This document shows, in pieces, positions 30,106-62,197 of a stretch of 64,000 nt of DNA. The notes under the pieces are model-generated. The model saw only the letters and a program-made list of their open reading frames with translations. It was not told the DNA's origin and searched no databases. Origin of the DNA: Telopea speciosissima (Eukaryota > Streptophyta > Magnoliopsida > Proteales > Proteaceae); the NCBI RefSeq assembly GCF_018873765.1, contig NC_057925.1, positions 13,403,568 to 13,467,567 on the forward strand, in the 5' to 3' direction. Position 1 is the stretch's first letter; every line of letters begins with the position of its first letter. Both the position numbers and the translations under genes were made by a program.

Positions 30106-33100
30106 TATACATCCAAGATTATACAAACCAATCAGAGGCTGCCACGTGTCCCGGTCCACGAAGTAACCCATTCCAGAAGCAAGGGAGAACCAACTCGAAA
30201 GCAGGCCTCAAGGAAAATCACGGGCGCGGCCTCACTCCTCGGGCGCGGCCTCACTCCTCGGGTGCGGCTTCCTCACCACAGGCGTGACCTCTCCACGGGT
30301 GCGGCCTCATAGTCGCGACCCCCTGACATGACCTAAGCGGACGTCGAGACACCTAGCCTATGATCCAGTCATCACTATAAACATACACCACCTCCAGGAC
30401 TCTAGGCCACCGCCTAGAAGTCACGTCGCCCAGACAGACTCAAACACCAAAGGAGCTATCACCGCACACACGGATATCTATCTATTAAGGATCCCAACCC
30501 CACTGGGATACTCCCTCCCACAAGGAGTCGACCAACCATGGAAGAGCCCTGCTACCCAGGGTCTCTATCCACTCTACGGCTCACTCGCCATCAAACTGGG
30601 ACTCTCCACACCGCCATACTCTACTATAAAAGGAAACGTACTCAACCCCATCAAGGGACATCTTCACTCATCTTGAATACTACTATTCATCTGTTTGGTC
30701 AAAGAGATCTAACTTAGGCATCGGAGAGTCCTAGGCTGGAACCACACCAGTTCTCCTTTGTCACCCAGGGTCTTTTGTAGGTTACGGCACTCGCTGAGTG
30801 ATTTCTTGGCGCAATAGATTGGCGCCGTCTGTGGGAACGACACTAGCCATCGTATCTACTAGCTTGTTTCCATAACTGTTCAATCATGGCACCACGGGGT
30901 AAGAAGATTGTTCCCTCCACCAACAATGCCCCAAGGAATGGATCACCTCCTCCAGAGAGCTCTCGTCGCAGAGCCAATGACCATGACCATGTCTCTCTGG
31001 AGAGGGAGATCCCAGACGATGATCTAGTTGCCGTAGTTGAACCCAACAACGAAGTGGTGGTGGAGGTGGTACCTGACCCCAATGCCCCAGCAACTATGGG
31101 TCAGATCAATGACCTACAGCGACAGATCCTCGAGGATCAACGACTCTTACGCGACTACCTGAGGCAGCGTGCAACATCACACTGTCGTAGGACGGATCCT
31201 CGGTGGGAACAGAGCCCTAAGAGGTCCCCTCCCAGGGGTGACAGATCAGCGAGGCACACCAAGCAGCGGGGAGAGCCTTCCCAACCTAGGGGGAGATTAG
31301 CAGATCCTCCAGCACGGTCAAATCAGGGGAGAACACCATCACACCGATCCATGGTACCTAACCCTGAAGGGTCCATCCGGAGGTCGGTGTTTGATGGTCG
31401 ACTAAGAGGAAGTTATGTACAAGGGCAAAGCCGAAACTTACCATGAAGCAAGCCCCTTGCGATCAAGACAAGATTCATCACGATGTGACCCTTCACCATC
31501 TCGCCAACAGTCAAGACGGGAAAGGACTTCCAGGAGAGGACGAGAACGAGCTCGCAACGAACTACCAGTCAGACGTGAAGGACAAGCACGGGATGAAGAG
31601 TTTGACAAGAGACTCTGAGAGTTGGACAAGAAGCTGGAAGGATTGAAGAAACAGACCAAGGGTGAGACACACTCAATCCCTGGACAACACCTCTTCTCAG
31701 AAGAGATCATGTCAGCCTCACTCCCATCCAGGTTCAGGCTACCCACCTTTGAACTCTACAGTGGTACCACCGACCCTAATGACCATATCAATTATTTCAA
31801 CGAGATGATGACCCTATACGGTGGATCAGACGTGGTATCCTGTCGAGCATTCCCTGCATCCCTCGAGGGTGCAGCGACCTCATGGTTTTCCAAACTGCGC
31901 TCGCGGTCGATTGGGTCGTTTGCAGAGCTATGCGAATAGTTCGTGACCAGCTTCCAGAGCAACGTCAAGTAAAAGAAGACCATGGTCAATCTACTGCACG
32001 TGATACAAAACCTTGGGGAGTCCCTCAGGGAGTATGTCAACAGGTTCACCAAGGAGTCCTTAGAAGTCAGAGACCTAGACGATCAAACCCAGCATGCTAC
32101 CTTGGCTAGGGGCATCCAAGACATAGAGTTGATCAAGGACCTGGCATGTTATGAGATCAGGACTATAAAGGAGCTCCTGGAGCAATACAACGAGTTCGCC
32201 AATATAGCAGAGATAGTACAAGCTCGGAAGAAGGCAATTGAAGCCAAACCACAGGACAACAAGAGGTCAGCGCCAAATGACCGTAAAGATAATAAGAGGT
32301 CAAAGACCGAGAGCCGATAAGAGAAGGGCGACCGCCCATCTAGGAGAAGTGATTGTCGCCCAGAGAGGAGTGAGAGAGCAAGCAGTCCAGAGTTCACACC
32401 GTTGAACACCACCAGGTCCCAAATCCTTATGTAGATTCAAGACCGTGACCTACTCCGTTGGCCACAACCCATACTAGCAGGACCTGAGAAGTGTAACCCC
32501 AACAAGTACTGTCTCTTCCACAAAGAGAATGGACATGATACAGAAGACTGCTACCAACTGAAGAGGGAGATAGAAGGCCTTGTGAGGGCAGGGAGTTTGA
32601 ACAAGTACGTGAAGGGGAGACGTGATGGTCGTTCGGGCCAGGGAGATAGAGGTTGTGATCGAGAAAGAGAAGAACTAAGAAGGGAAGAAAGGAGAGTGGA
32701 CCGAGATAGGGAGAAAGACCGCACTGACGAAAGAAGAGATACGCGGGAGCCCAGCGGTACCAAGGGAGCCCCCATCCTCACCATACTTGGAGGACCAGGG
32801 CAGGAATCAACCAGGAAGGTCAAAGCCTATGCCAGGTTCGTGGGAGTGGCAGAGAAGCCAAGTAAGATAGCAAAGACTGAGACGACGATCTCCTTCTCGG
32901 ATGAGGACTTGGAAGGTGTGAGCTTTCCACATGAGGATGCCCTGGTAGTATAGGTGGAGGTAGCCAACCAACCCGTACACAGGGTGCTGATAGATACAAG
33001 GGCGTCCGTGGATGTGCTCTCACTGGAAGCCTACCGCAAGTTCGGATTTGGAGACGATCAACTCAAGCCAGAGCCCACTTACCTCCATGGTTTCTCGAGT

Positions 33101-34515
33101 GCCACCGCCTCCGTCAGGGGTACTATAGAGCTACCCGTCACCTTTGGAGAGCATCCTCGACAGGTAACCATCATGGTGAACTTTATGGTCGTCAGGTCTG
33201 TGGTGCCATTCAATGGCCTCTTAGGATGATCGTCTCTGTTAGCCCTTAGAGGTGTCGTATCACCACTCCACCTGAAGATGAAGTTCCCCACTGACAACGG
33301 AGTGGGTGAAGTCCGAGGCGATCAGAAGAAGGCCAGAGAATGCTATGCCACCTTCATGAAGAAAAATAATGGCAACACATGGGGGATGGCACTGTGCATG
33401 GAGAACCTGGTCAGCGACCAGAGAGATGAACTAACAGAGAAGAGAGGAAGGCCGGTGGAGGACCTCATCTCCTGGCCACTCAACAAAGACGACCCTTCCA
33501 AGGTCGTATAGGTTGGCTCATTATTGAGCGATGAGCAGAAAGAAGAACTGGGGCACCTCCTCCAAGCTAACATGGATGTCTTCGCATGGTCAACTGCAGA
33601 CATGCCAAGCATACCCAAATCCATAGCAGAGCACAGATTGCATGTAGACCCAACCAGGAAGCTCGTCCAGTAGAAGAGAAGAAATTTTGCCCTCAACCAA
33701 CAGGCAGCCATCAAGGAAGAGGTTGAGAAGTTGAGCCGAGCAGGGTTCATCAGAGAAGAAAAGTTCCCTACCTGGCTCGCGAACGTGGTCATGGTACCCA
33801 AGCCTAATGGGAAGTGGAGAATATGCGTCGGCTACACTGACTTGAACAAGGCGTGCCCAAAAGATGAGTACCCACTACCCAGGATTGATCTGCTGATTGA
33901 CGCCACCGCCGAACATGAGATGTTGAGTTTCATGGACGCCTACTCCGGTTACAATCAGATCCTCATGCATGAGGATGGCAGGTCTTACAACGCCTTCCGA
34001 ACAGACAAAGAGAACTACTGCTACTGTGTCATGCCGTTCGGACTAAAGAATGCAGGAACCACCTATCAGAGGATGGTCAACAAGATGTTCGAGGAACAGA
34101 TTGGGTGCAATATGGAGGTGTACGTGGATGACATGCTCGTGAAAAGCGTTCAAGCCCATCAACACTTGGCCGACCTAGAAGAAGTGTTCGCCGTGCTGAG
34201 AAAGAACCAGATGAAACTAAACCTTGCAAAGTATGCCTTCGAAGTTACATCAGGGAAATTCCTGGGGTTCATGGTCTCAGTATGGGGAATAGAAGCCAAC
34301 CCATCCAAGATCAAGGCCATCTAGGAGATGGCACCACCCCGGACAGTCAGAGAAGTACAGAGGTTGAATGGAAGGGTTGCTGCCCTTTTCAAGTTCGTGC
34401 CATGGTCGGGAGACAAGTGCCTACCATTCTTCAGGATGTTGAAGAACCTCCGAAATCCTAAAGACTTTGCATGGACGGAGGAGTGCCAAAAGGTATTACT
34501 CTAGGCTATTGCGAC
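30106..34515 (+). mobile_element. Ty3/Gypsy (Tat-like) retrotransposon, broken and 3'-truncated
   Basis: A 5' LTR (about 30106-30816, GC-rich GGGCGCGGCCTCAC repeats inside) is followed by the primer-binding segment TTGGCGCCGTCTGTGGGAAC. A gag region comes next (N-terminal MAPRGKK near 30886, retrotransposon gag domain about 31700-32250, zinc-finger-like FHKENGHDTEDCYQL near 32517). Then come an aspartic-protease-like region (about 32950-33230) and reverse transcriptase (about 33660-34320, with VMPFGLKNA and YVDDMLVKS). Traces of RNase H end near 34510. There is no integrase and no 3' LTR. The copy is broken in several places and is a fossil. Gag, RT style and primer site fit the Tat lineage. 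Confidence 0.85.
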
Positions 34516-36915: not shown

Positions 36916-37576
36916 CTTCTTGCTCTTATCATTTATTATTCTTCTCTCTGTGTGTCTCTCTGCTTCTGTGTTTCTCTGAATCTGATTATGTTAAGATTGT
37001 AAGAAATCAACTGACTCCACCGCCCAAACTGAATTGAATTGAGAGGTCCAGTTCTCTAGGGTGGGTGAGTGAGTCTGCAATCTTTAATTTAGAGAGTATT
37101 TGGTTTTATCTAATTGGGGGTTGTTGCTCTACATTCTTCTTGTTCTTATCATTTATTATTCTTCTCTCTGTGTGTCTCTCTGCTTCTGTGTTTCTCTGAA
37201 TCTGATTATGTTAAAATTGTAAGAAATCAACTGACTCCACCGCCCAAACTGAGCTGAATTGAGAGGTCCAGTTCTCTAGGGTGGGTGAGTGAGTCTGCAA
37301 TCTTTAACTTAGAGAGTATTTGGTTTTATCTAATTGGGGGTTGTTGCTCTACATTCTTCTTGTTCTTATCATTTATTATTCTTCTCTCTGTGTGTCTCTC
37401 TGCTTCTGTGTTTCTCTGAATCTGATTATGTTAAAATTGTAAGAAATCAACTGACTCCACCGCCCAAACTGAGCTGAATTGAGAGGTCCAGTTCTCTAGG
37501 GTGGGTGAGTGAGTCTGCAATCTTTAATTTAGAGAGTATTTGGTTTTATCCAATTGGGAGTTGTTGCTCTACATTC
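36916..37576. repeat. Three tandem copies of a 220-bp unit inside a MULE
   Basis: ATCATTTATTATTCTTCTCT recurs at 36929, 37149 and 37369, so the period is 220 bp. Copies two and three differ at very few positions, which suggests recent amplification. The unit is non-coding (CT-rich then AACTGACTCCACCGCCC). Confidence 0.92.
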
Positions 37577-37767
37577 GTCTCAACTCGTCGATCTGCAACC
37601 TGTTTGGTGGTAGTCATTCTAGCCGGATAAGAAGCCTCATAGTGACCATAATCCCTGTAAATTTGATTCACCTAAGCCCCTGATCCAATCAGTGAAGATT
37701 GTTGAGGAGATTGTTTAGGAGATTTAGGAGATCTAAGAGACTGATATCGATGTTTCAATGAAGAAAG

Positions 37768-38067: not shown

Positions 38068-39117
38068 GCACGATCGATGGGATTTGCCAGGTTAGCTCCT
38101 TCACACACATTAAAAGAGGGAGGGGAAAAAAGATCTGTATAATCTATTCTCCCCAATTTCAAATAATAACGAAACAGAGCTTCAACAATGGCATTCCAGT
38201 ATGGCTCTAAGCCACTATAAACTTTCTGACTAACTGAATCAAAAAGACCATGAAGCCTGCAAATGGGTTGAGTTTTTGCATTCCAAATGGGTCGTGATTC
38301 TCTACGGCACCCTACCCAAGGGGCGTACCCATACCCTCCACCTCCACCAGGTTATCGGCCGTGGTTTTGGGCTTGGGACGACGACGCTGCTCTTGTTTCT
38401 TACGCCACCCGATGAAAACGATGAACAGAGATAATGAGATTTAGGGTTTTACCCTTAAGGGTATTATGGGGAGTTCACCCTATTGAAAGGGTAATTTTGC
38501 CATTATAAAAATATTAACAACAACTTAACTGCAAAAGACTAACGGATTGGATTTAGTTGAAATATAATCATAAAATAAGGATAATCTTTGATATTTTTGC
38601 AAAATTTAGGGTGTTGTCTGTGAAATTTGCCTTTTTTATTATTATTAGGGAAATTTATGAAACATCTCCTGAAAATGGGCCGATACTCAGATCACCCCCT
38701 CATATTTAAAAATACTCAGATCACTCCCTCTACACTAACGGTGTTAGTCTGCTATTAGTTATTGGTGTAAAAGGATTATTTTACCCTTGTAAATATTTCA
38801 CCCTTATTTTTATGGGTTTTTTTACAATCGCCATCCCAAAATCTTTCATATTTACTATTATCCCTCCAAAAAACTTTGAAACAACTGTGACCCTCCCCTG
38901 TTGCATAGTAATAACTAACTGGCCCCAACCGTTACAGACTTGTAACGGAGGGAGTTAGTCGTGACAGTGTGCCGTTATCACGAATTTTTTAAAACCAAAA
39001 TGCCCTTTTGGGATGGTAATTGTAAAAAACTCCCACCCCATCTTCTCCTCCTTCTCTTGCATCTTCTTCCTGCTCACATTAACCGTATCAAATCCCAACG
39101 TGCCTGTAACTAGAATT

Positions 39118-39324
39118 TCAAGGGCTGAAGAAACCCAAAGCAAAATTGCTTCCAGTGGAGACAACGATTTGGCCAGCATCATCGGTGATTGATTCAGTTG
39201 GGTTTAGGGTATCGATAGGAGAAGGGTTGGGGACAACGGCGGAGGCGTTGAAATGGAAGAGTAGGAAGCATAACCATAACCATGTTGGAGAGAACATGAG
39301 ATCTGATCGTTGTTTTCTTCTCAT
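39118..39324 (-). pseudogene. Captured N-terminus of a G-type lectin S-receptor-like kinase
   Basis: The 68-codon minus-strand frame has a signal-peptide-like start (MRRKQRSDLMF, then TWLWLCFLLFHFNASA). It continues with DTLNPTESITDDAGQIVVST and GSNFALGFFSP, the opening of the bulb-lectin domain of S-locus-type receptor kinases. A stop follows FFSP, and after it the reading NSSYRHVGI continues the lectin domain. Only the first part of the exon is present, so this is a transposon-captured fragment. Confidence 0.75.
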
Positions 39325-40140
39325 TCACAATCATTGAATCACACAAGCAGTTTATCAATGAAAGAAAAAAAACGCATAATCAAATCGAAATCATAATCAA
39401 CTGAGAAGGAGAAGAAAAAGAAGAAAAAGATAAATTTGTATCAAAATCAACTGATCTAAGCCAATTTTATTCGCTCGAAACCATAATCAAATCGAAATCA
39501 TCGGAGAACAACTTTATAAATCAATTCCGTATCGTAGAACCTTGTAGGTATATGATTCCCTAAAAAAAAAAATTGATCGGGGCGACATTCAAAGAGGAAG
39601 AAATTTTAGGTTGCAGAAATATTCATACGACCCGTTTTACAGCAAAAGAAATGGAATAAAAAAAATATTTTTAAAAAATATTATAATTTAGGAAGGGATT
39701 TGTGAACCGTATGAAGAAATGAATTATTCCATTTCTTTGATTGCAAGTCCAGCAGGAACATTCCTGCAACTGAGGTGGGTGAATACTCACATTCATGAAT
39801 GTATGTGAACAGAATTTACTTCTCTCAATTCTTAGGTGTTGGTAGACAGAAAACAAAAGCTAATGGAATATACTATAAAATGCAGAGCAGACACAGATGG
39901 TTGAACCATTCAGAGCATAATTAAGCCTGGATAACCTGCTCTGGCTTTTAAACCCGTTTGTCCTCGAGACTGTTCGAAGCTCCACCGTAAAACTGTTCGG
40001 CCTGCACTCGTCCCCTTTTACTTTTCGCAGGCGCGCAGTTATGTGGCTGAAACCAGCATCATTTCAAGCCCTTTGAAGCCACTAGAAACCACTGAGAGAT
40101 GCTATACAGCATGGAATCTGGACTATTTTCATGCTGCCAA

Positions 40141-40227
40141 ATCGTTGTCTCCACTGGAAGCAATTTTGCTTTAGGTTTCTTCAGCCCTTGAAATTCTAGG
40201 TACAGGTACGTTGGGATTTGGTACGGT
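40141..40227 (+). pseudogene. Second copy of the lectin receptor kinase fragment in the opposite arm
   Basis: The plus-strand reading IVVSTGSNFALGFFSP, stop, NSRYRYVGIWYG is the mirror copy of the fragment in the left arm. It carries a little more of the lectin domain (GIWYG) intact. The shared stop shows the two arms descend from one capture. Confidence 0.7.
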
Positions 40228-41772
40228 TAATGTGAGCAGGAAGAAGGAGAAGGAGAAGAAGAAGGAGGAGGAGAAGGGACGGTGATGGGGTGAGAGTTTT
40301 TTATAATTACCATCCCAAAAGGGCATTTTGGTCTTAAAAAATTCGTGACAATGGCACACTGTCACGATTAACCCCCTTCGTTACAGGTCTGTAATAGTAA
40401 GGACCAGTTAGTTATTAGTATGCAACAGGGGAGGGTAACAGTTAGTTTTACATTTTTTGAAGAGATAATAGTAAATATGAAAGATTTTGGGATGATAATT
40501 ATAAAAAACCCTTTATTTTTTCCCCCTTCCCCTTGTTTATACCTACTCTTTTGATAATGTAAAATGGGTATTTTGAATTAGTACGAGCTTCTCTCTCTGA
40601 AACTTGGAATGAAGATGATCTCTGTCTTTTGATGATAAATGTGGTTTTGAGCAGAGAGAGAAAAAGAACAACCCACCCCTTCTAATCCATGAATTTCTTC
40701 TTTTTTTTCCCCTTTTTTTAATTTTTCAGGTTTAACTTTTCTTTTCAACTGTTATTCTTTCTCCACTTCTTTTTTATTAGATTCCATATCTTTACTCTTC
40801 TTTTTGTTCTTCTTTTCTTTAAATCCATTACATAAATGGATGGACTTGCAGGTTTTATTTTCAGGAATACTTTCAGGTCATGAGGTTGTCAAAATAAAAC
40901 CCTGTCCCTGTAGCCTTAGTTGAATCAAGTCTGCAACTTGATCTTCTTCCTCTTCTCCTCTCTTTCATTCCTTTCCCTTCAAGACCCATGTCTCCATTAT
41001 TTCTGCAACTGATAATAAGAAATATTTGATCTTTAAAGACATTGGAAGTGATGTTGACAACGATGGTTACCTTTTGCAGCTGTAATTTCTTCACTCTTCA
41101 TTGTTTAGGGATGTTTGGAGTCATTGCAATGAGAAAAGTTTGAGAATTGACAGCTTGAGGTGAGGTGCATTTCCAAAACTGCACAAATGAGGGATTCAAA
41201 GAACAGTGGTAGAAATGTAGAAATGGAGGTGTGATTTGAATTTGGAGTGGAGGGTATCATGGTCAAGGAAGGAACTGAAATTTTATCCAGTCTGTGGTGT
41301 GGTCCTTGTCGCCATTAACGAGGACCAGTCTCTTGGAAGAAGAAGGTAAGAAACGAGATTAAAAAAAATAAGAGATTTGGCTGTACGGGTTTTTTCCTTC
41401 AAGCTGGTTCATTGAATCTTCACCTTTCTCGACGAGGTACGTCGACAACGGCGGCGGCGACGGTGCTACGAGCAGAGTTGCAAGAAAAGGGTGGGGTATT
41501 TTAGGTTGAAGATGAAGGGTAGTATTGTAAATTTAATAGTACATGTTGGGTTCTTAGACCTAAGGGTAAAATAGTAATTATACTCTTCTCAAGGGTAGTT
41601 TAGGGTTTTCAAAACATTTAACTAACTGACTTCATCAGTTAACTAACGGTAGGGTCTAATTTGGGTATAGAGCTCTAATGTAGGGGGTGATCTGAGTATT
41701 TTCAAATATGAGGGGGTGATCTGAGTATCGACCCATTTTCAAGGGGTGTTTCATAAATTTCCCTTATTATTA

Positions 41773-45044
<3,272 letters not shown>

Positions 45045-46184
45045 TCATTGTGAAGTGGGTTGAATACCTTTGATTCTTCTGAGCTCATATGCCACTTTCA
45101 TCATAGTAGGCCTTCCCTCAGGATTCACTTTGACACATTTCAGAGCAAGCTCTGCACATGCCATTGACTGCTCTCTGTTTCTTTCCCTCAAGATATTTGC
45201 TTTTAAGTACCTTTCAAGATCATTTTCAGTTTTCATAACAGTATCGCAATCCTTTCCATTCTGCTCAACCAACAGTTCAGTATCGTTTTCACCATCAAAC
45301 ACCTCCTCGAATATATGATTAACCCTCCTACCTGTCAAAATCTCAAGCAATACACATCCAAAGCTATAAACATCGGTCTTCTCTGTAAACCTCCCAGTGG
45401 AGAAGGCTTCAGGAGCAATGAACCCAATTGACCCAACAACCTCTGATTCTACATATGTTTCACCCAAAGGAATCGATATGGAAAGCCCAAACTCGAATAG
45501 TTTGGCAACAAAGTTTTTACCTAAGAAAATATTTCTGGGTTTGATTTCCCTATGGATGATGGGCTTGGAAGTACCTTTGTGGAGATAGGTTATTGCATCT
45601 GCTACCTCAGTCGCAATCCTTAACCTGTTATCCCACGTTAATAGTGGATGGTGCTTCGAAGGAGCTTCCAACTTCTCGTAAATATGATCAGAGAGATCTC
45701 CGTTCTCTGCAAATTCATACACCAGTGTAGGAACTTGGGTCTCTAAGCAACAACCCAAAAGTTTCAAAACATGCTTCTGATGATTCATCTGCGATGCGAC
45801 TGCGAGTTCATTTATGTACCAGTGGATAAAACTCTCAGCATCATTTTTAGTAAACCACTTGACCGAAATTTCACGATTTTCTAGGGTTCCTTTATACAAT
45901 TTATAGGTCAAATCACTATGAAGAACTCCATCTTGAGCATAATTGTTGGTTGCAATCTGGAGTTCTTGCTTGGAGAAGTTACGGAAGGGAGTTGATTTGC
46001 CACCGAAGGAAGAAATTAGCTCTTCTAATATCCGACCTCCATTCTCTAACATGAATGATTCCTCGTCTGTTCTTCCCTTTAAGAATCTGAATTGCTCCTG
46101 TTCTGGGTTTTTCTTCTCGAGAGATCTGGATTCCTTTTCTGTTGGGTTTCTTCCATTGTTGGGTAATTTAAAACATGACCACAT
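45045..46184 (-). CDS. ZED1/ZRK-like receptor-like cytoplasmic pseudokinase (RLCK XII)
   Basis: Single-exon 379-aa kinase-fold protein without a transmembrane segment. Residues 70-110 are FSKQELQIATNNYAQDGVL...YKLYKGTLENREISVKW. There is no glycine-rich loop, but a lysine is kept (K109). The catalytic loop is HREIKPRNI (211-219), so HRD is HRE. The metal-binding DFG is EFG (231-233). IAPEA (256-260) and DVYSFG (271-276) are kept. ENREISVKWF and the single-exon form resemble the ZED1/ZRK family, which acts with the NLR ZAR1 as decoys or adaptors for bacterial effectors. The N-terminus (MWSCF) has a Cys that could be acylated but no Gly2. A splice-acceptor-like GGTTGCAG just upstream (about 46220) hints at a 5'UTR intron. 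It looks intact. It could instead be a weakly active wall-associated-kinase-like RLCK. Confidence 0.85.
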   Translation of the reverse strand: MWSCFKLPNNGRNPTEKESRSLEKKNPEQEQFRFLKGRTDEESFMLENGGRILEELISSFGGKSTPFRNFSKQELQIATNNYAQDGVLHSDLTYKLYKGTLENREISVKWFTKNDAESFIHWYINELAVASQMNHQKHVLKLLGCCLETQVPTLVYEFAENGDLSDHIYEKLEAPSKHHPLLTWDNRLRIATEVADAITYLHKGTSKPIIHREIKPRNIFLGKNFVAKLFEFGLSISIPLGETYVESEVVGSIGFIAPEAFSTGRFTEKTDVYSFGCVLLEILTGRRVNHIFEEVFDGENDTELLVEQNGKDCDTVMKTENDLERYLKANILRERNREQSMACAELALKCVKVNPEGRPTMMKVAYELRRIKGIQPTSQ

Positions 46185-46517
46185 GCTTGCTAGTGGTGGA
46201 GACTACTGTAAACCTGCAACCCCTGTCAAAATACTCCTAAACTGAAGAAAGAAAAATGGAGCAATGAAGGTCGTATGTTCAAAAACGTGTTTGCAGGGCA
46301 GATTTGAAGATCAACAACAATAAAAAGAAGAAAATCAACACAAACCAATACTGAGAGAACATGAGTACTGCTCTGGATCTGAATGCTCATAGATTAGATC
46401 TTATTTTTGAAGATGAAGAAGAACGATAGTTGACTGAATGGAAAAAAGTCAAAAAACTACGTCTGGTCGAAACGACAGGCCAATCAAACCCTGACAAGCG
46501 GAAAATTTGTGTTTGTG

Positions 46518-49500
46518 TTTTTTTTTGGTAAACAAGTCTTTATTAAGAAAAAAAAAAGACATGCAAAGCTCACGGTAGCGAAGAATGACACATCTCACGC
46601 AGGCACGCAGCCATGGGGTGGAAATGGGCCAGTAAGTTGTGCATGTTAACGACAAAGCTTTCCTAGCCAAGGAGTCAACCACGCTCCCCGTGGAATATAA
46701 GTGAAGCTACAACATACAAAGAAGGAAGAAAGGTGGATAATGTCATCAATGATCACTCGAATCAGCAATGGTGAAGTCCCACCACCATCCTGGATATGTG
46801 TAATGAGATTTATATTATCTGATTCAACCATAACTTGCGCAAATCCAGTCTTGATCATCTCCAACAGTGCCATACGAATAGCATGAGCCTCACCAACCAT
46901 AACATCCGAAAAAGAAATTGGATCGGATACAACTATCAAAGGCATTCCCCTGTGATCTCTACAAATGAAACCAATCCCAGATCTGCATAAATCCAAAGAC
47001 AGACTGGCATCACAGTTGCACTTGATAAAATCTGCAGAAGGTGCTATCCATCGTTGTGTTAAGATTAGAGTTGTTGGAGAAATAGTAGCAGCAATAGATT
47101 GTACATCCATAAACTCCTGAAATGCCTTTACAGCTGCAGAAATTATTTCACTTGGATGCCAAAGTCTACGCCCAAAGACCAGATCAATGCGTGATAACCA
47201 CAAAAACCAACAAACAAAGCTGCATAAGGTTATCAACGATCGAGCTTCCTTCTTTCCCTGGTTAGAGAATGACTTCCAACCATAAATCCAATCTGATATG
47301 GATGGATTTCCATTCATTGAAGAGATAGAACCAAGTGGACAACCAAACCAAACAACTTTAGCATATGCACAGCCCAAAAGAATATGTGAAGTCGTTTCAC
47401 ATTCACCACAATGACCACACAACGGATCAACATTGATATTACGCCGATTAAGTGCATCTCCTATTGCTAAGCCACTTGCACAAGCTCGCCATAGAAACCG
47501 TTGAATCTTGGGCATAGTGCTACAATTCCAGATGATTTTCCAAACATCAGTAGGAATTGTACTCCAATCATTTAACCTTGAGGCAGACGTTGCTGATAAA
47601 TGACGTACGTGCTTGTTCCTTATTAGAAAGAAGATGATAAGTACTTCGAATAGAGAAAACTCCATTCCTACTTCCCATCCATTCCAACTTATCAGGTTGT
47701 GGAAAGAGTGACAAATTAATCTTCTTAATTGCTACTATATCAGCATCATTAAAATAGGAAGATAGAACATCATCGCTCCAAGTCCTATTTGATTCATCAA
47801 TAAGGTTTGAAACCTTTGAAGGCCATATTAGCGGTGTATAAGGTGTGGTAACCTTAAAATCTGCCAACGTAGGAACCCAAGCATCTTGCCATATATCGAC
47901 ATTCAAACCAGTTCCAATTCTCCAACATAAACCTTCAGCCAAGACCCGGTTTCCTTCCATAAGACTTCGCCATCCCCAACTAGGCCGATGTCCACAAGTA
48001 GCATCCAAAAAGTCATTGTGTGGGAAGTATATAGCCTTTAAAAAATGAAATAAAAGACTATTGGGATCAGACCATAAACGCCAAGCCATCTTTGAAAGAA
48101 GTGCACTATTATGAAGAGAAGAATCACGGAAGCCCAAACCACCATTCTCCTTTGATAAACATAGGCGCTCCCAAGAAATCCAATGCATCTTTGGCCAGCC
48201 ATCAATGTCACCCCAGTAAAAATTTGAAGCCATTTGGCGTAAAGATTTATGATATGATGCTGGTAATTTAAAATGCATACATGCATAATTTGACATAGAA
48301 AAAACCACAGACTTTAACAACACCTCCTTACCAGCATGTGATAAAAGTTTAGACTTCCATCCTTGTACTTACTGTCGCACCCTATCAGAGAGATAAAATG
48401 AATTAAGAAACACCAAAATCATTAGGAAGCCCCAAATACTTTTTAGGTCCAGAATCATATGGCACTTTCATAATTCTGGAAAACCATCTCTTGATCCTTG
48501 GATGAGTATTTGGTGAAAAAGTCATACAAGATTTTTCAAGTTAATCTCCTGACCAGATGCCTTACAATAAGTAGATAAACATGACTTAATTACATATAAT
48601 TCTTCCAACTTTCCTTCAGCAAATAGGAGACTATCATCTGCAAATAAGAGATGTGTAATTGGTGGCGCACGATTACGAACTCTTATACCTTTAATGTCAC
48701 CATCAGATTCAGCCTTTTGTAATAAACAACTCAAAGTATGAGAACAAAGAATAAACAAGGCTGGTGATAAAGGATCTCCTTGTCGAATACCTCGTGAAGG
48801 AACAATAGTGCCCCTAGGTGCATCATTGATAAGAATTTGATAAGAAACAGGTAATAAACAAGCCATAATCATTTTCACCCAATGTGATGCAAAACCCATC
48901 TTGAGAAGAATATGCTCAATAAATTGCCACTCCAATCCGTCATATGCTTTCTTCATATCAAGCTTTAACGCCACCAATTTTTTCTTCCCTTTCTTCATTT
49001 TGTTAATATAGTGGAAAAGTTCATGAGCAATTAAAACATTATCAGAAATTGCTCTATTTGGAATAAAAGTAGATTGAAAAGGAGAGATAATATCATCCAA
49101 TATGGATTTCAATCTTGTAGCTAGCAATAATCTTAGTGATAACTTTGCATACAACAATACAAAGAGCTATTGGCCTGAATTGATCTGTAAATTCTGGTTG
49201 TAAAACTTTTGGTACAAGACAAACCAAAGTTTCATTCAATACAGAAGACATGACTCCCATCTCAAAGAAGTTTGTAACAAACAAATACAAATCATCCTTA
49301 ATAATATCCCAATATTTATGATGATTTAAGAGGACTCATAGCAAATAAAGCCATCTTCATCTCTTCTATAGAAGGTACATCACAAAGCATTTCATTTGTA
49401 GGCTGAGATATACATGGAACAACCGAATCCAAGCCAACATGAAGGGAAGTGGAATCAATACCATCAGATTGAAAAGCCAAATTAAAATGAGCAAGAATCT

Positions 49501-51750
49501 CCTGATATAACTCATGATCAGTTTGAGTCCATTGACCATTGGGCAATTTAAGTTGTACGACCCTATTAAAACTCCTTCTTTGTAATGTAGAGGCATGGAA
49601 AAAATTGGTATTTCTATCTCCTTCCTTTAACCAAGATGTCCTTGATTTCTGCCTCCATAATTCCTCCTCATTAGCAAGGGCATCATCAAGCGAACGCTTG
49701 AGATGCATAATTTCAGAATTAATGGAATCAGTTAATGGCATACTTTGTAACCTATCAATTTCATCAATAAGATTCTTGATTTCAATTTGAACATGGCCAA
49801 ATACCTCGTTATTCCACCGAATATAATCAGACCTACATTCATTCAACTTTTGATGCAAAATAGAAGAAGGAGAATCCATAGAAGAAGAAGACCATGCTAG
49901 TTGTGCCACTGTTTTACAATCAGGGTGCTTGAACCAAATTGATTCAAAACGAAAGAGCCGTTACCCTCCAAAACGCCGTCCATCCATATTAATCAAAAGT
50001 GGTGCATGATCTAAACCAATTTGAGACTTAGTATAAACATAAACATCTACAAATTTCAATCTCAAGGCCTGGTTACATAATGCATGGTCCAAACGAACCT
50101 TAACATTAGCATCTCCTGTCCATCTATTACACCAAGTAAAGGTGGGACCATGACAACCCAAATCCATTAAAGCACATACATCAAGCATATTTTGAAATAG
50201 AGACATATCTCTAGGCCGGATCACTCCGCTTCCCTCCTTGTTTCTCCTGCCCAAGTAAGATGAGAATTGAAATCTCCAAATAACAGCCAAGGCAAACTTC
50301 TTTGCTCCCCAATTGATTATCAAAGAATCCCAAACTTGATGTCTTAAAGCTTTAACAGGATCACCATATACGCAACTCAAGAGAAAAGAACAACCAGCCT
50401 CATTAGTAATATTCATATCCAGAATTCTTGGAGAAAAAGATACTAATTGAATAATAATAATAGGATCACGCCACAATAGAGCAAGGCCACCTGATAAACC
50501 AATTGGGTCAACACAAAATAAATGATCCAACGCCGCCTTATATATTCCATGCGTGGACGTTTACATTTATTCTCCATAAGAAAAACCACATCTGGCCTAT
50601 CAACACGGGAGAGCTGTGATAAAAACCGAACTGTCGAAGGTCTCCCGGCCAATTCCTTGACAGTTCCAACTTAAGAATTTCATTGTTGCCCGTGGTGTTG
50701 ATGAATATCAGCCACCACGGGGGTAGGAATCTCATCCCATTCCTTAGGAGAAGAAGCATCAGGAGAAGACAGTCTTGGGCGTTTATGCGACTCTGGACAA
50801 ACATCCATAGGAAGAGTGATAGAATTACACCCAACATGTGTCATTGAACGCCGCATCGCTTAACATGAATCATTGAACGTAAACTCTTAGGAATGTCCAT
50901 ATTGATCCTACATCTGTAGAGCATAGATCGCACACCATTAATGTAATAGGTTGTTTCCATTAATAGTCGTGGCTCACCAAATCTCTGAGCAATACCTAAC
51001 AACACCTCAGTAGAGCGTAGATCAATTGGAACATCCAGAAATTGAACCCAAAAATCACAATGGGTGAATGCATTATCCAAGCAGCCATGCCATTTCTCTA
51101 GGATTAACAAGTTACCATTCACACTCCATGGGCCATCAAGTAGAACATTTTGCATATCTATTTCATGTTCAAACTTGATTAGAAAATGATCAGCCTCCAA
51201 CGGATGCACTTGAACATCCTTTACAGCATTCCAGGCACGCAACTAACCATCCGAAACAGATTGTTTACGGTATGGCTTATCAACAATGATCTTTCCAACC
51301 AGACAATAGGCATAGTCAGCAACAACCAAACGATCTTCTAAATCATCAGCGAGAGAAAAGGTATCATCATCAGATAATACAGATTCATTTTCAGTGAGAT
51401 TAACTGCAGCAGTAGACGATGATGGAGGTAATGGGTTAGGCAATGGGGCAGAAGAAGACAAAGGATTAGTACGTGGGAATTGTAGATGAAGAAATTGGTA
51501 GGGTTATTGAAGGAGAGGAAATTATTAGTGGTGGAAGCGATGGTTGTGGAAATGATGCATGAGATGGTGCATGAGTAGGTTGAAGAGATGATGGAAGGGA
51601 GTCAGAATGGAGAGGCAAAGTATGAGAGCGTTCACCAGTTTGGTCCTGGGAATGATGTGATGAAGACGGTGGAGACGCCATTAATGAAGAAAAAATGCAG
51701 AAGATAGTAGAAGGATTTGAGGAAAAGCAATAGAGAGAGAGAGAGGAAAC
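46518..51750 (-). mobile_element. Near full-length L1-type LINE with RNase H domain
   Basis: The tail is the T-run at 46518-46526. ORF1 starts near 51681 (MASPPSSSHHSQ), runs through a DUF4283-like region (51242-50841; DGPWSVNGNLLILEKW) and ends near 50840. ORF2 has an endonuclease (about 50690-49961; GLSGGLALLWRDP, CVYGDP), reverse transcriptase (49300-48520; LDMKKAYDGLEW, GIRQGDPLSPALF, LLFADDSLLFA) and zinc-binding region (47630-47300; IPKIQRFLWRACASGL). It ends with a C-terminal RNase H (47060-46650; KCNCDASLS, GEAHAIRMALLE). Several frame breaks separate the pieces, so it is dead, but overall order and length are complete. Its 3' end lies about 330 bp upstream of the pseudokinase ATG. 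Confidence 0.88.
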
Positions 51751-52616: not shown

Positions 52617-53142
52617 CCAGTGATCTTGAAGAGAAAAGGAAAGATTTCCATATTCAGGGATCCTGGAAGCCAGTGACACCGGCGGAGCCCATTCCGATGA
52701 GGTTACAACTGATCTCGACAAAGAGGCAAGGGAATCAGATAGGTAGGACGAATTGGCTGGAATCAGTGGTATTCCCTGCTGGGTTCTGTCAAGAGACTCC
52801 CCCTACAAATGGGGCAGCTGCATGCGTTGATTCCATGGCTTCTCTCAGTCAGAACAGGAGGCTTAGTAATTGGGAATCAGCCATGATTTGAAGACAGATG
52901 AAGAGAATAGTTTGTAATTTAGGGTTTTACGCTTAAGGGTATTATGGTAAGTTTACCTTGTGGTAAGGGTAATTTCACCATTATAAAAGAATTAACAGCA
53001 ACTTGACTGCACAGACCTAACGGAGTGGACTAAGTTGAAATAAAAACATAAAGTAAGGGTAGTCTGTGATATTTTTCCAAAGTTTGGTATGTCCGTGATA
53101 TTTCATATACTTACAGGGGGTGTCCGTGAAATTCACCCTTTT
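51787..53142. mobile_element. Partial MULE related to the element at 36215
   Basis: The right part (TTACGCTTAAGGGTATTATGG near 52927; GATATTTTTCCAAAG; GTGTCCGTGAAATTCACCC ending about 53142) matches the right end of the MULE at 36215-38632. Its left counterpart (AAAATATCAACC and CCCCTAACGTTAAG at 51800-51830) is present. The outermost left bases are absent, with the LINE lying next to it. The interior includes an (AG)n run and an unassigned plus-strand frame at 52673-52891. Confidence 0.65.
52551..52612. repeat. (AG)31 microsatellite
   Basis: An uninterrupted AG dinucleotide run of about 62 bp. Confidence 0.97.
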
Positions 53143-53853: not shown

Positions 53854-55372
53854 GAATCACTAATATTTGCACCTTTTTCTGCAGATGAAGCTAAAGAAAT
53901 CCTTTGTATTCCCTTAAGTGTTTCTTCCATTTCAGATTCATGGCTATGGGAACCTTAAAAAATTGGTAAATTCTCTGATAAAATTGCATATCATGTAGCT
54001 TGTGCTGATTCTCATAGATCCCAATCCCCTGAATATTCTAGAAATGCACATGACTCTATTTGGGAACATATTTGGAAGCTCCCTATCTTACCTAAACTTA
54101 AAACATTTTTGTGTGGAAGTGTTGTAAGCATGCCCTGGCTGTGAAATTAATGCTTTATAAAAAACATCTTACTGTTGATTCATTATGCCTTGTATGTTCT
54201 AACAATGAGGAAACAATAGAACATGCGTTATTTTTCTGTCCATTTGCTTCTGAGTGTGATCTCCTTTTAGACTAAATATATGTTTCAAGGTTATGATTTT
54301 AAGAGTATATTGTCTCACTTCCTTAGCTGGGCTAATAATTTCCATGATAAGAAAGATGCTATTCTTCAATGGATTGCCTTAACATGGCAGATCTGAAAAG
54401 CTAGGAACAATTTTGTTTTTAACCATTCTAACCTTTCTATGTTTGGTACTATTCAGGCTTTTCATCATGCTGTGGATCCGGAAGATGGTCGTTAACTCGT
54501 AAGGGTTTGTGTAGGGACATGAATAAGTATCAAGCCCCTCTTGTGGCTTTAAATAGTTTTTATCCTTCTACCAATATAGAGAAATTTACTATTTTTGTTG
54601 ATGGAGCATGGAAAGCTAATTCCTCTTTGAGTGGCAGCGGTGTGCTCATTAGGAACCATAGAGGCAGATTTGTGGCAGCGAAATGCAAGACGGGAAGAAG
54701 CTTATCAGCTGCATCCATGGAGGCAGAAGCTGTTAGAGACGGTCTTCTTTTAGCTCAGAGCATGCAACTTTGGCATAACATTGTCTTCTCAGACTCAAAA
54801 CCGTTGGTTTCTTTTCTTAACAAAGAAGTTGTATCTTTGGACTGGTCTACTGAACAGATTGTTGTAGATTGTTTCTCTTTGTTAGATTCTTTTGTTTTCC
54901 TAGAGTTTTTGTACGTTCCTAGAATTTTGAATGTGGATGTCCACATTCTAGCTCAAGGAGCCTCTATGTTAGGTCTTTCAATGGTTTGGTGGATTAAACC
55001 TCCAGCGTTCATTGTAAATCCTGACTTCATCGGTAGGAACGTCTCGTCTTTTCAATTGATTTGGGTCTTCGGGCCCTATTTTGTCTCCCTCAAAAAAAAA
55101 AAAACCCTATAGTTATAGACGAGGAATTTTTATCTGCTCCAAATCTATCAATTTCCCCGTTAGATTGTTGGCATATGACATGTTTAAATTCTAAGATTTG
55201 AGTTATGACATTCACCCATCCAACACTAACTTAACCCAAGTTACCCATTCTCTCTCCTCTCTCTTTAACTCTCAGAAACGGCGGAATGATGGCAACTCTT
55301 GCCATTGAAAACAATGTTGACATCGAATCTCTTCTCAGCAAAGAGATGCCCCCAAAAAGAAGATGGGAAAAT

Positions 55373-58031: not shown

Positions 58032-58758
58032 TGATAAACCCAAAATCACACCAACCAATCAGAGGCCGCCACGTGTCCCGACCCCAGGTAGGAAGACCAT
58101 CCCAAAGCAGGCCACTTTACATTTCACTCGATTGGCCTGTACGGGCTACTACCAACAAGGAAGTCCAGGTACTACGGGCTACTACCGCCAACAACAAAAT
58201 ATACGTCATCTCATGGGTACACGGCGACCACCACCATCAACAAGACATGTTTCATCACAGAGGACTCTAGGCCACCGCCTACCAGTCACGTAGTCTGGAT
58301 GGACTCATACACAGGGAACCTCATCTACCACGTAGATAGGTCTATCCATTAAGGATACCAAGTCTATCATGACACCACATCTCACGAGAAGACAACTACC
58401 AAGTCTATCATGACATACGTCTCCCGGGAAGACAACTACCAAGTCTATCATGACACCACGTCTCACGGGAAGACAACCAATCAAGGATGAGCCCTGCTAC
58501 TCAGGGACTCTACAGACTACGAAGGCCACTCTACATCAACTTGGACTCTCCACACTGCCACACTCTACTATTAAAAGGAAGGTACTCTACCCCAACAACC
58601 CATCTTGAATACTATTATTCATCTGTTTGCTCAGGAGATCTAACTTTGGCATCGGACAGTCCTAGGCCGGAACCACACCGGTTCTCCTTTGTCATCCCCT
58701 GGTTCTTTTACAGGTTACGAGACTCGAAAGGACCCTTGAACGATTTTTTGACGCAACA
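58032..58758 (+). repeat. 5' LTR
   Basis: 727 bp, TG...CA ends. It contains about three copies of a 41-bp repeat (CTACCAAGTCTATCATGACA, then CCACGTCTCACGGGAAGACAA) and a TATTAAAAGGAAGG promoter-like segment near 58570. Confidence 0.9.
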
Positions 58759-60372
58759 GATTGGCGCCGTCTGTGGGAACGACGCTAGCCATCATATCTA
58801 CTAGCTTGTTTCCATACCTATTCAGTAATGGCACCACGAGGCAAGAAGACCGCTCCCTCCACCAACAATGCCCCGAGGGAGGGGAATGGATCACCTCCTC
58901 CAGAGAGCTCACGTCAGAGGGTCAATGACCACATCTCTCACGAGGAAGAGATCCCAGAGAGTCAACAGGCTGAGATAGTTAACCTCAACCCCGAAGCAGC
59001 CATCGAAGCCACCGTGGAGCCATTACCTGATCCCAATGCACTGGCGACTGTAGGTCAGATCAACGACTTGCAGCGCCAGATCCTTTACGACTAACAACTC
59101 TTCCGCGATTACCTGAGGTAGCGTGCAACATCCCACCGCCGTAGAATGGATCCTCGACGGGAGCAGAGCCCTAGGAGGTCACCTCCTAGGGGTGATACAA
59201 GAGAGGGCACCAACAGGCGCGGACGAGGAAGCGAGTAAGACTAATGATCAAGGTCGTGTGCACGAGACTATGAGTAGAACCAAACTCCAAGAGGCACCAT
59301 GCCAAATGCAAGCCAAGCGAAGAGAAGAGAATGAGTCCATACCAGCCACGGATCGCGGGCATTGATCGAACAGGCGCAAATCGAGAGAGCGATGATCACC
59401 AAGCGTAGATCAGATTAAATGGGCGTCACCGAACGCGAATCGGATCGAATGGGCGTCACCGGGCGCCATCAATGGGTGTCGACTCTTAAGAGAGAGGAAA
59501 AAAAAAAAAACAAGACCAAGGGTCCACGCCCAAAAAGCCATGGGCACGGACTCTTGAGTGAGAGCAAAGATAGGAGAGAGGAGAGAGAGAAGAAAGATTG
59601 AAAAAAAAATCATGAATGGGCGCCATCCATCAATGGACGCCGCCCAAAAGCAAAAGAGAAAAGCAGGAGAGAGAAAAGAAGAAGAGAGGGAAGAGAGAAA
59701 AGAAGAAAAAGAAGAAAAGAAAGAACAAACAACTAATACTAGATACAGATCAAGGCAGCACGGGCACCGATCGAGCAGGCGTGGATGCGGATGAGCATCG
59801 ATCAAGCAGGCGCCAACCAGCGTCAATCGAGCAGCCGTGGAGCGTGGAGGGCGTTGCTCGAGCAGGCATGGACCACGGACAGGCGTCAATCGAACACAGG
59901 CGCAGACCCCCGGCAGGCGTCGATCGAGCAGGCGCGGACCACGGGGACGACGCGGATCGAGTACAAGCACAGAACGATGGGCGTTGATCGAGTGCAAGCG
60001 TAAGTAGGTGGTCGATTGAGTACAGGTGCGGACCACGGACGCGTTGATCGAGCAACCAGGGCGAGCTAGGCATAGACCAACGAGCACGAACGTAAGCACA
60101 AAGCAAAGGCCGAGCACCAAGCATGCCCGCTACAAAACAAGCCAAAGCCCAATGGTTAGACAAGAACAAGAGGCAACAATCAAGAAATAAAGAGGTGGCA
60201 CACAACTCTTTGCCACCCAAAAGCAAACACCTTGGGGGCAACGAAAGATGAAGACCAAGTGCAAGGCAAACGAGAAGACTCAAAAAATCAAAAAGTGGAA
60301 AAGCAAGAGAGAAAGAAAGAAAAATAAAAATGGGGTCTTTGGCCATGGCCAAGGACCGCGATCAACATGCCA

Positions 60373-60560
60373 TGGGCATGGACGAGGTTCGAGGTCCGAA
60401 GTCGGAGTTCGAGGTCCAAGGTCGAAGTTCGCGAGGGTTCGAGGTCCGAGGTCAAAGTTCACGAGGGTTCGAGGACGAGGTTCGAAGTCAAAGTTCGTAA
60501 GAGTTCGAGGACGAGGTTTGAGGTTGAAGTTCGTGAGGGTTCGAGGTCAAGGTTCGAGCA
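60373..60560. repeat. GTTCGAGG-type tandem repeats in the LTR element interior
   Basis: Repeated GAGGGTTCGAGGTCCGAGG and AAGTTCGTGAGG blocks, about 35-40 bp apart and diverged. Confidence 0.75.
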
Positions 60561-60844
60561 AAGATGTGTCTGTGGCTAAAGACCAATTCGGGTCAATATC
60601 AACCAAAAAGAAAGGGGGCCACGGCCAAGGGCCGTATGTGACAGGCCATGGCAGGAACAAGGTTTGAGGTTCAAGGATCGAGGTCTGAGGTCCAAGGTCG
60701 GAGTTCATGAAGGTTCGAGGCCGAGGTTTGAGCGAAGATGTTTCTGTGGCCAACGACCAATTCGAGTAAAAAAAAAAAAAAAAACGAAAGTACGAGACGT
60801 CATATTTGTCACGAGTTCGAGGTTTAGAAGCAGAGTTCGAGAAG

Positions 60845-61410
60845 GTCCGTTGACCACCAAGGCGTAATGTCACCAAGGCCCGTTGGCCACCAAGGCGCAA
60901 TGCCACCAAGACGTAATGCCACCAAGGCCCGTTTTCTACCAAGGTCCGTTGACCACCAAGGCGTAATGCCACCAAGGCCCGTTGGCCACCAAGGCGTAAT
61001 ACCACCTAGGCCCGTTGGCCACCAAGGTCCGTTGACCACCAAGGCGTAATGCCACCAAGACGTAATGCCACCAAGGCCCATTGGCTACCAAGGCCCGTTG
61101 GCCACCAAAGTCCGTAGACCACCAAGGCGTAATGCCACCAAGGCCCGTTGGCCACCAAGGTCTGAAGACCACCAAGGTGCAATGCCACCAAGGTTCGTAG
61201 ATCACTAAGGCGTAATGTCACCAAGGCCCGTTGGCCACCAAGGTCCGTAGACCACCAGGGCACAAGGCCACCAAGGCACAAGGCCACCAAGGTCCACGGA
61301 CCACCGAGGCGTAAGGCCACCAAGGTCCGCAGACCATCGAGCACAACGCCACCAAGGTCCATAGACCACCAAGGCTCGAAGCCACCAAGGTTCGACAACC
61401 ACTAAGGCTC
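60845..61410. repeat. ACCAAGG minisatellite (16-17 bp units)
   Basis: About 30 or more units of the form ACCAAGGCGTAATGCC, ACCAAGGCCCGTTGGCC or ACCAAGGTCCGTAG, arranged in mixed order. Open frames on both strands are repeat artefacts. Confidence 0.9.
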
Positions 61411-61470
61411 AAAGCAAAAATGCAAAGTCTACTCTCTTGGACATTCTGATCCAAGAGAGTGGGGGGCAAA

Positions 61471-62197
61471 TGATAAACCCAAAATCACACTAACCAATCA
61501 GAGGCCGCCACGTGTCCCGGCCTAGGTAGGAAGACCATCCCAAAGTCGGCCACCTTACATTTCACTCGATTGGCCTGTATGGGCTACTACCAACAAGGAA
61601 GTCCAGGTATTACGGGCTACTACAGCCAACAATAAAATATACATCATCTCATGGGTACATGGCGACCACCACCATCAACAAGACATGTCCCATCACAGAG
61701 GTCTCTAGGCCACCGCCTACCAGTCATGTAGTCTAGATGGACTCATACACAGGGAACCTCATCTACCACGTAGATAGGTCTATCCATTAAGGATACCAAG
61801 TCTATCATGACACTACGTCTCATGGGAAGACAACTACCAAGTCTATCATGACACTACGTCTCACGGAAAGACAACTACCAAGTCTATCATGACATCATGT
61901 CTCACGGGAAGACAACCAATCAAGGATGAGCCTTGCTACTCAGGGACTCTATCGACTACGAAGGCCACTCTATATCAACTGGGACTCTCCACACCGCCAC
62001 ACTCCATTATAAAAAAGAAGGTACTCTACCCCATCAACCCATCTTGAATACTATTATTCATCTGTTTGCTCAGGAGATCTGACTTTGGCATCGGAGAGTC
62101 CTAAGCCGGAATCACACCGGTTCTCCTTTGTCATCCCTTGGTTCTTTTGCAGGTTACGACACTCGAAAGGACCCTTGAACGATTTTCTGATGCAACA
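61471..62197 (+). repeat. 3' LTR
   Basis: 727 bp, the same length as the 5' LTR, with the same internal 41-bp triplication. Preceded by the purine tract and followed by GGTTC. Confidence 0.9.

Follow-up and report, generated by a model that had tools for sequence, protein, structure and literature searches.

The inverted repeat that spans positions 38814-40511 (1698 nt) of the window (i.e., the whole 64-kb stretch of DNA analysed) is probably a decayed non-autonomous MULE-type DNA transposon, which lies inside a second such element, carries a captured fragment of a receptor-kinase (SRLK) gene in its extended arms and would be silenced in cis. This explanation is supported by the arms themselves, by the two SRLK copies, by the stop codon that these copies have in common, and by a 9/9 target-site duplication around the outer element (Table 1); an evolved role against receptor kinases is unnecessary as an explanation. 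The inner repeat is most likely built in part from MITE-like sequence, and the SRLK fragment in it was most likely already broken. Every ingredient of this arrangement is already known, and here they are combined, with both arms of a MULE-type element containing an SRLK piece; our search of the open-licence literature (titles and abstract openings) found no description of an SRLK fragment in MULE arms, and the available passages of a lectin-family paper (PMC2846932) had no bearing on it. The locus clearly illustrates how a gene fragment can become part of MULE-type arms and how DNA transposons can be nested, and such elements are known raw material for new plant small-RNA genes.

Table 1. Elements, arms and captured fragments, with their positions in the window.
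Feature	Positions	Strand	Basis or remark
Enclosing non-autonomous MULE-type element, 3.1 kb, GGGAAATTTATGA ... TCATAAATTTCCC	38648-41763		Inverted ends and 9-bp duplication
Left target-site duplication of enclosing element, TTATTATTA	38639-38647		TTA run; a second register 3 bases outward also fits
Right target-site duplication of enclosing element, TTATTATTA	41764-41772		Copy of the left 9 bp
Left arm of inner inverted repeat	38814-39179	+	Alignment to 40131-40511
Right arm of inner inverted repeat	40131-40511	-	Alignment to 38814-39179
MITE-like unit, 219 bp, outer portion of left arm	38814-39032		Own inverted ends
MITE-like unit, 218 bp, outer portion of right arm	40294-40511		Own inverted ends
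SRLK lectin-region fragment, left copy	39082-39171	-	Translation; two stops, one common to both copies and one its own
SRLK lectin-region fragment, right copy	40138-40227	+	Translation; one stop, common to both copies
Loop, without recognised gene	39180-40130		Pfam and in-window copy search

The arms of the inner repeat face each other across the loop, and their alignment comprises 333 matches, 30 substitutions (23 transitions and 7 transversions) and 21 gap columns, for an identity of 91.7% with gap columns excluded and a divergence of approximately 8%; by a region-wise count, 17 of 20 gap columns fall within a CTT/GAA microsatellite. Long terminal inverted repeats, as used to recognize MULEs, are hence present in the inner repeat (approximately 370 bp at 91.7% identity), and both the arm length of about 370 bp and the outer borders proposed in an earlier, sequence-only reading of this DNA agree with the arm alignment. 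That reading overlooked the MITE-like units in the arms as well as the larger element around them. Each unit has inverted ends of its own, at 38818-38841 and 39006-39029 in the left arm (24 nt, 92%) and at 40293-40320 and 40485-40512 in the right arm (28 nt, 93%), and the GGG end of the unit is the point at which both arms start. A blastn comparison within the window found no copies of the repeat besides the two arms, with the leftover matches being short and located mostly within purine-rich microsatellite, and five stop-free stretches of the loop matched no Pfam family at E values up to 1. A 31-base piece of the inner end of the unit had no match among viral contigs, a comparison that is uninformative for a plant repeat.

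Close to its inner tip, each arm has approximately 90 bp that derive from an SRLK gene. The right copy translates as QIVVSTGSNFALGFFSP, a stop and NSRYRYVGIWYG, and the left copy as QIVVSTGSNFALGFFSP, a stop, NSSYRHVGI, a second stop and YG; the stop after SP thus occupies the identical residue in both. A phmmer search of this peptide against PDB (E up to 10) returned three matches in all, namely SRK8 (6kyw; residues 49-75, E = 4.5e-4), SRK9 (5gyy; residues 23-47, E = 0.16), and an unrelated nucleoside diphosphate kinase (E = 1.5). When the window was scanned, ungapped and in six frames, with the 27-residue SRK8 segment, the right and left copies scored 77 and 62, respectively, and the next-best place in the window scored 25; the best places in five mononucleotide-shuffled windows scored 21-29. 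Because of the phmmer matches and of scan scores far above those of the shuffles, the piece is identified, from sequence similarity, as the N-terminal lectin region of an S-locus-type receptor kinase; the element thus contains part of a host gene, as is characteristic of Pack-MULEs. That a short low-complexity stretch resembles a receptor kinase by chance alone has, in our judgement, a vanishingly small probability; while Pfam returned no family for the three strings tried (one frame-mixed and two overrunning the true frame at their ends) and the best PDB E-value is modest, the similarity to SRK8 extends on both sides of the common stop, and the segment scan rejects chance similarity within the power of five shuffles. 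The proposal of the sequence-only reading that a lectin-domain piece is mirrored in both arms is hence borne out by translation, phmmer and the segment scan, and the stretch is longer than the 14 residues spotted at that time; the left interval then given (39118-39324) was wrong, as the arm ends at 39179 and positions 39180-39324 belong to the loop. The common stop indicates that one already broken fragment was probably duplicated; two independent captures are unlikely, since both copies have the identical stop position and the same flanking arm sequence. Across the whole 64-kb window, the two arm copies were the only matches to the SRK8 segment, and there is thus no such gene within the window.

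The enclosing element contains the whole inner repeat, and its identity as a MULE is well supported. Its termini, GGGAAATTTATGA and TCATAAATTTCCC, are mirror images, and its terminal inverted repeats (38641-38729 and 41682-41770) match at 91% over 89 nt, a stretch that includes a few bases of the duplication; any further extension of these ends, with more of the left end sought beyond the inner repeat, is weak (local score of 24, reached in 11 of 300 shuffles). A target-site duplication of approximately 9 bp is a signature of MULEs, and TTATTATTA stands on both sides of the enclosing element with 9/9 identical bases. Just one of 40400 neighbouring offset pairs equalled this value, and no pair among 3000 random pairs compared without swing was identical over 9 bases; for all-A/T 9-mer pairs, 1290 of 200000 were identical. 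As TTATTATTA is low-complexity TTA sequence, the duplication is somewhat weakened as evidence, and this counts against our preferred explanation. Of the 41 stop-free frames in the enclosing element that reach 35 aa or more, 10 were scanned with Pfam; these 10 contained neither a transposase domain nor a sign of additional captured genes, with nine having no match and one matching DUF2732 at E = 0.19, far below the cut-off.

The sequence-only reading had applied the name MULE to the inner repeat; the name is well supported for the enclosing element, with its inverted ends and 9/9 duplication, and is only possible for the inner repeat, the duplication of which lies in T-rich flanks and reaches 6/9 at the exact borders and 8/9 with a 1-base swing. 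The controls for this value are in disagreement: 8/9 was reached by 42 of 39872 random pairs, by 6364 of 59113 all-A/T pairs and by 4880 of 8042 pairs matched for T content, and an exact 8-mer within a 10-base swing was rarer (29 of 3000 random and 9 of 952 A/T-matched pairs). Because the flanks are T-rich, the 8/9 duplication is uninformative, and that over half of the T-matched pairs equal it is a further point against our explanation. For comparison, the pipeline described in the available portion of PMC4858842 allowed MULE duplications of 7-11 bp with limited mismatches. A different origin of the inner repeat, which we consider possible but rather unlikely, is that it is not one element with long TIRs and consists of two MITE copies of approximately 218 bp that face each other; in such a case, a local inverted duplication would have copied a MITE together with an adjoining piece of SRLK pseudogene, and the enclosing MULE would carry the product as cargo. 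In line with this origin, the outer 218-219 bp of each arm carries separate inverted ends of 24-28 bp, no convincing duplication flanks the inner repeat itself, and the outer inverted repeat has diverged as much as the inner one (81:8 vs. 328:31, with 81:8 derived from 91% of the 89 nt at the ends of the enclosing element; Fisher p = 1.0), so that the inner one is not visibly younger and the test finds no difference from which to order the two by age. By contrast, both arms start at the GGG end of the unit, as expected if this end was used as the end of a single transposed element; each unit alone lacks a target-site duplication (2/9 on the left and 2/9 on the right), and the 8/9 duplication of the whole inner repeat is compatible with transposition.

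A transcript of the inner repeat is predicted to fold arm to arm from either strand, which agrees with the suggestion in the sequence-only reading that a transcript could form a hairpin. The predicted folds of the 1698-nt stretch have energies of -776.1 kcal/mol (plus strand) and -777.5 kcal/mol (minus strand), as compared to 12 mononucleotide-shuffled versions of the plus strand (mean -401.8, minimum -419.0 kcal/mol); they contain 332 and 336 arm-to-arm pairs and longest unbroken runs of 47 and 64 pairs, respectively (G-U allowed), with the 64-pair run located nearly entirely within the SRLK piece. A long hairpin containing SRK sequence, as expected of a hairpin-type small-RNA suppressor of SRK, is hence present here as a predicted fold, and Rfam returned no family at gathering score anywhere in the window. 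Arm divergence of 8%, together with transitions that show no bias towards retention of pairs, is a sign of decay; transitions that preserve a G-U pair are split 10 vs. 13 between the two transcripts, so that selection for pairing has left no trace here. Between the arms, the SRLK side has kept a higher identity than the outer unit (matches to substitutions of 104:4 vs. 193:25, or 96.3% vs. 88.5%; Fisher p = 0.022, or p = 0.075 without CpG-type changes), in a comparison that was picked after the alignment had been inspected; this difference is not predicted by neutral decay alone and also counts against our explanation.

The sequence-only reading went on to propose that small RNAs derived from such a hairpin act in trans on SRLK genes, a role that we regard as improbable. 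The strength of the predicted fold and its 64-pair helix of almost purely SRLK sequence are consistent with this role, as is the better preservation of the SRLK side, and a precedent exists in the SRK inverted repeats that suppress SRK in Arabidopsis thaliana (PMC7075917). According to the available text of that study, these repeats measure 502 bp in Col-0 and 434 bp in C24, with suppression shown for Col-0 and suggested for C24, and reads from the C24 repeat that perfectly matched SRK alleles numbered 329 at 99.7% identity, 20 at 84.4% and none at 73.1%. Set against these figures, the SRLK sequence here is short (approximately 90 bp), and the failure of reads from the precedent to match perfectly an allele at 73.1% identity also counts against the role. 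An mRNA for the SRK8 segment, whatever its codons, would differ from the right copy at no fewer than 16 of 81 nt, and its best codon-aligned 21-nt stretch would still have at least 2 differences; as SRK8 is an outside yardstick, a trans role would need a host gene closer than SRK8, which may exist. In addition, 21-mers exact in both arms begin at just 23 of 71 starts in the right-hand SRLK stretch (40136-40226), as compared to 19 of 208 in 40284-40511, a pairing bias is absent, as described above, the window contains no SRLK match beyond the two arm copies, and the common stop suggests a fragment that was broken before it was duplicated. The further claim that immune or self-recognition receptors are the targets is speculation. 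In its fullest form, the trans role would make the element a mobile hairpin gene, with the captured SRLK piece in both arms and with small RNAs that damp host receptor kinases, and we give this version very little credence; if it were true, the element would parallel, on a transposon, the SRK inverted repeats of Arabidopsis, the preservation of the SRLK side would be a trace of its role, and the transposon would have made out of a scrap of a receptor gene a silencer that acts dominantly on self-recognition or immune receptors, like the SRK inverted repeats of Arabidopsis (PMC7075917).

Under our preferred explanation, that of a decayed MULE-type element nested in another, a single non-coding SRLK fragment would have been captured through the poorly understood acquisition process behind Pack-MULEs and incorporated into an extended terminal repeat; any transcript through the element would be predicted to form a long hairpin, and small RNAs from it would act mainly in cis, in the silencing of the element and its relatives through 24-nt RNA-directed DNA methylation. 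Silencing in cis is, we infer, probably the fate of the element. In rice, 24-nt small RNAs map to the TIRs and internal regions of MULEs, and the authors, in the available part of PMC4858842, suggest that these small RNAs direct methylation.

Among known systems, Pack-MULEs and MULEs with extended or multiple TIRs, as described by Ferguson & Jiang (2012; PMC3310237), are likewise non-autonomous and have long arms with a captured gene fragment; unlike these, the nested arrangement described here has a good target-site duplication for the enclosing element only. In the accessible sections of that paper, multiple TIRs resemble each other over at least 100 bp and are arranged mostly in tandem, and elements with tandem TIRs are more numerous in dicots than in monocots; by contrast, the additional ends found here measure 24-28 bp and face the outer ends in inverted orientation, which sets the inner repeat outside the tandem-TIR definition. 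The A. thaliana SRK inverted repeats (PMC7075917, available text) are likewise made of SRK-type sequence that can fold back into a hairpin; these repeats belong to relic SRK genes of the S locus, and small RNAs have been mapped to them, whereas the approximately 90 bp described here lie in a transposon and have a hairpin predicted from sequence. MITEs and inverted gene duplications have been proposed as sources of miRNA genes (PMC10004981), and S-locus dominance modifiers are miRNA-like hairpin precursors (PMC13128112); to judge from the available parts of these two sources, such loci resemble the element in that a piece of a gene is duplicated in inverted orientation, in the MITE-like ends and in the hairpin (here predicted); for the element, small RNAs and targets would be hypothetical, and it has no Rfam family.

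The surrounding parts of the window contain both genes and further repeats, and in its content the window resembles nuclear DNA of a plant. Directly outside the enclosing element lies the first copy of a repeat (38500-38628 and 52978-53103, 80.6%), and a 220-bp unit is present at 36916-37580 in three head-to-tail copies that are 97-98% alike. An O-methyltransferase has its best PDB matches among plant-type enzymes (e.g., isoflavone O-methyltransferases), the source organisms of which we take to be plants, and the window also contains EST1-domain exons, presumably of SMG7 type. A 385-aa open frame, stop to stop, at 45045-46202 on the minus strand has RKS1 as its nearest PDB match (E = 7.7e-62, with the next match at 2.3e-38); RKS1 is a pseudokinase that acts as a partner within the immune complex of ZAR1. 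Since HRE and EFG replace the HRD and DFG of active kinases, this RKS1-like frame probably encodes a ZRK-type pseudokinase, as judged from its translation. Adjoining it at 46646-50560 (minus strand) are pieces of a LINE-type element; these include zf-RVT and RNase H-like domains, together with an endonuclease match that is weak and does not reach its cut-off. Other retroelement remains include broken frames at 30847-34324 (plus strand), with a reverse-transcriptase domain at 33674-34324, and, apart from the other pieces, an open frame of 226 aa at 54432-55112 (plus strand) that contains an RNase H-like (RVT_3) domain. Finally, two pairs of direct repeats (58083-58382 and 61521-61820, 94%; 58416-58715 and 61855-62154, 93%), spaced by 3438-3439, are probably LTRs of a GC-rich element at 58083-62154, the interior of which is full of minisatellites (approximately 60383-61412).
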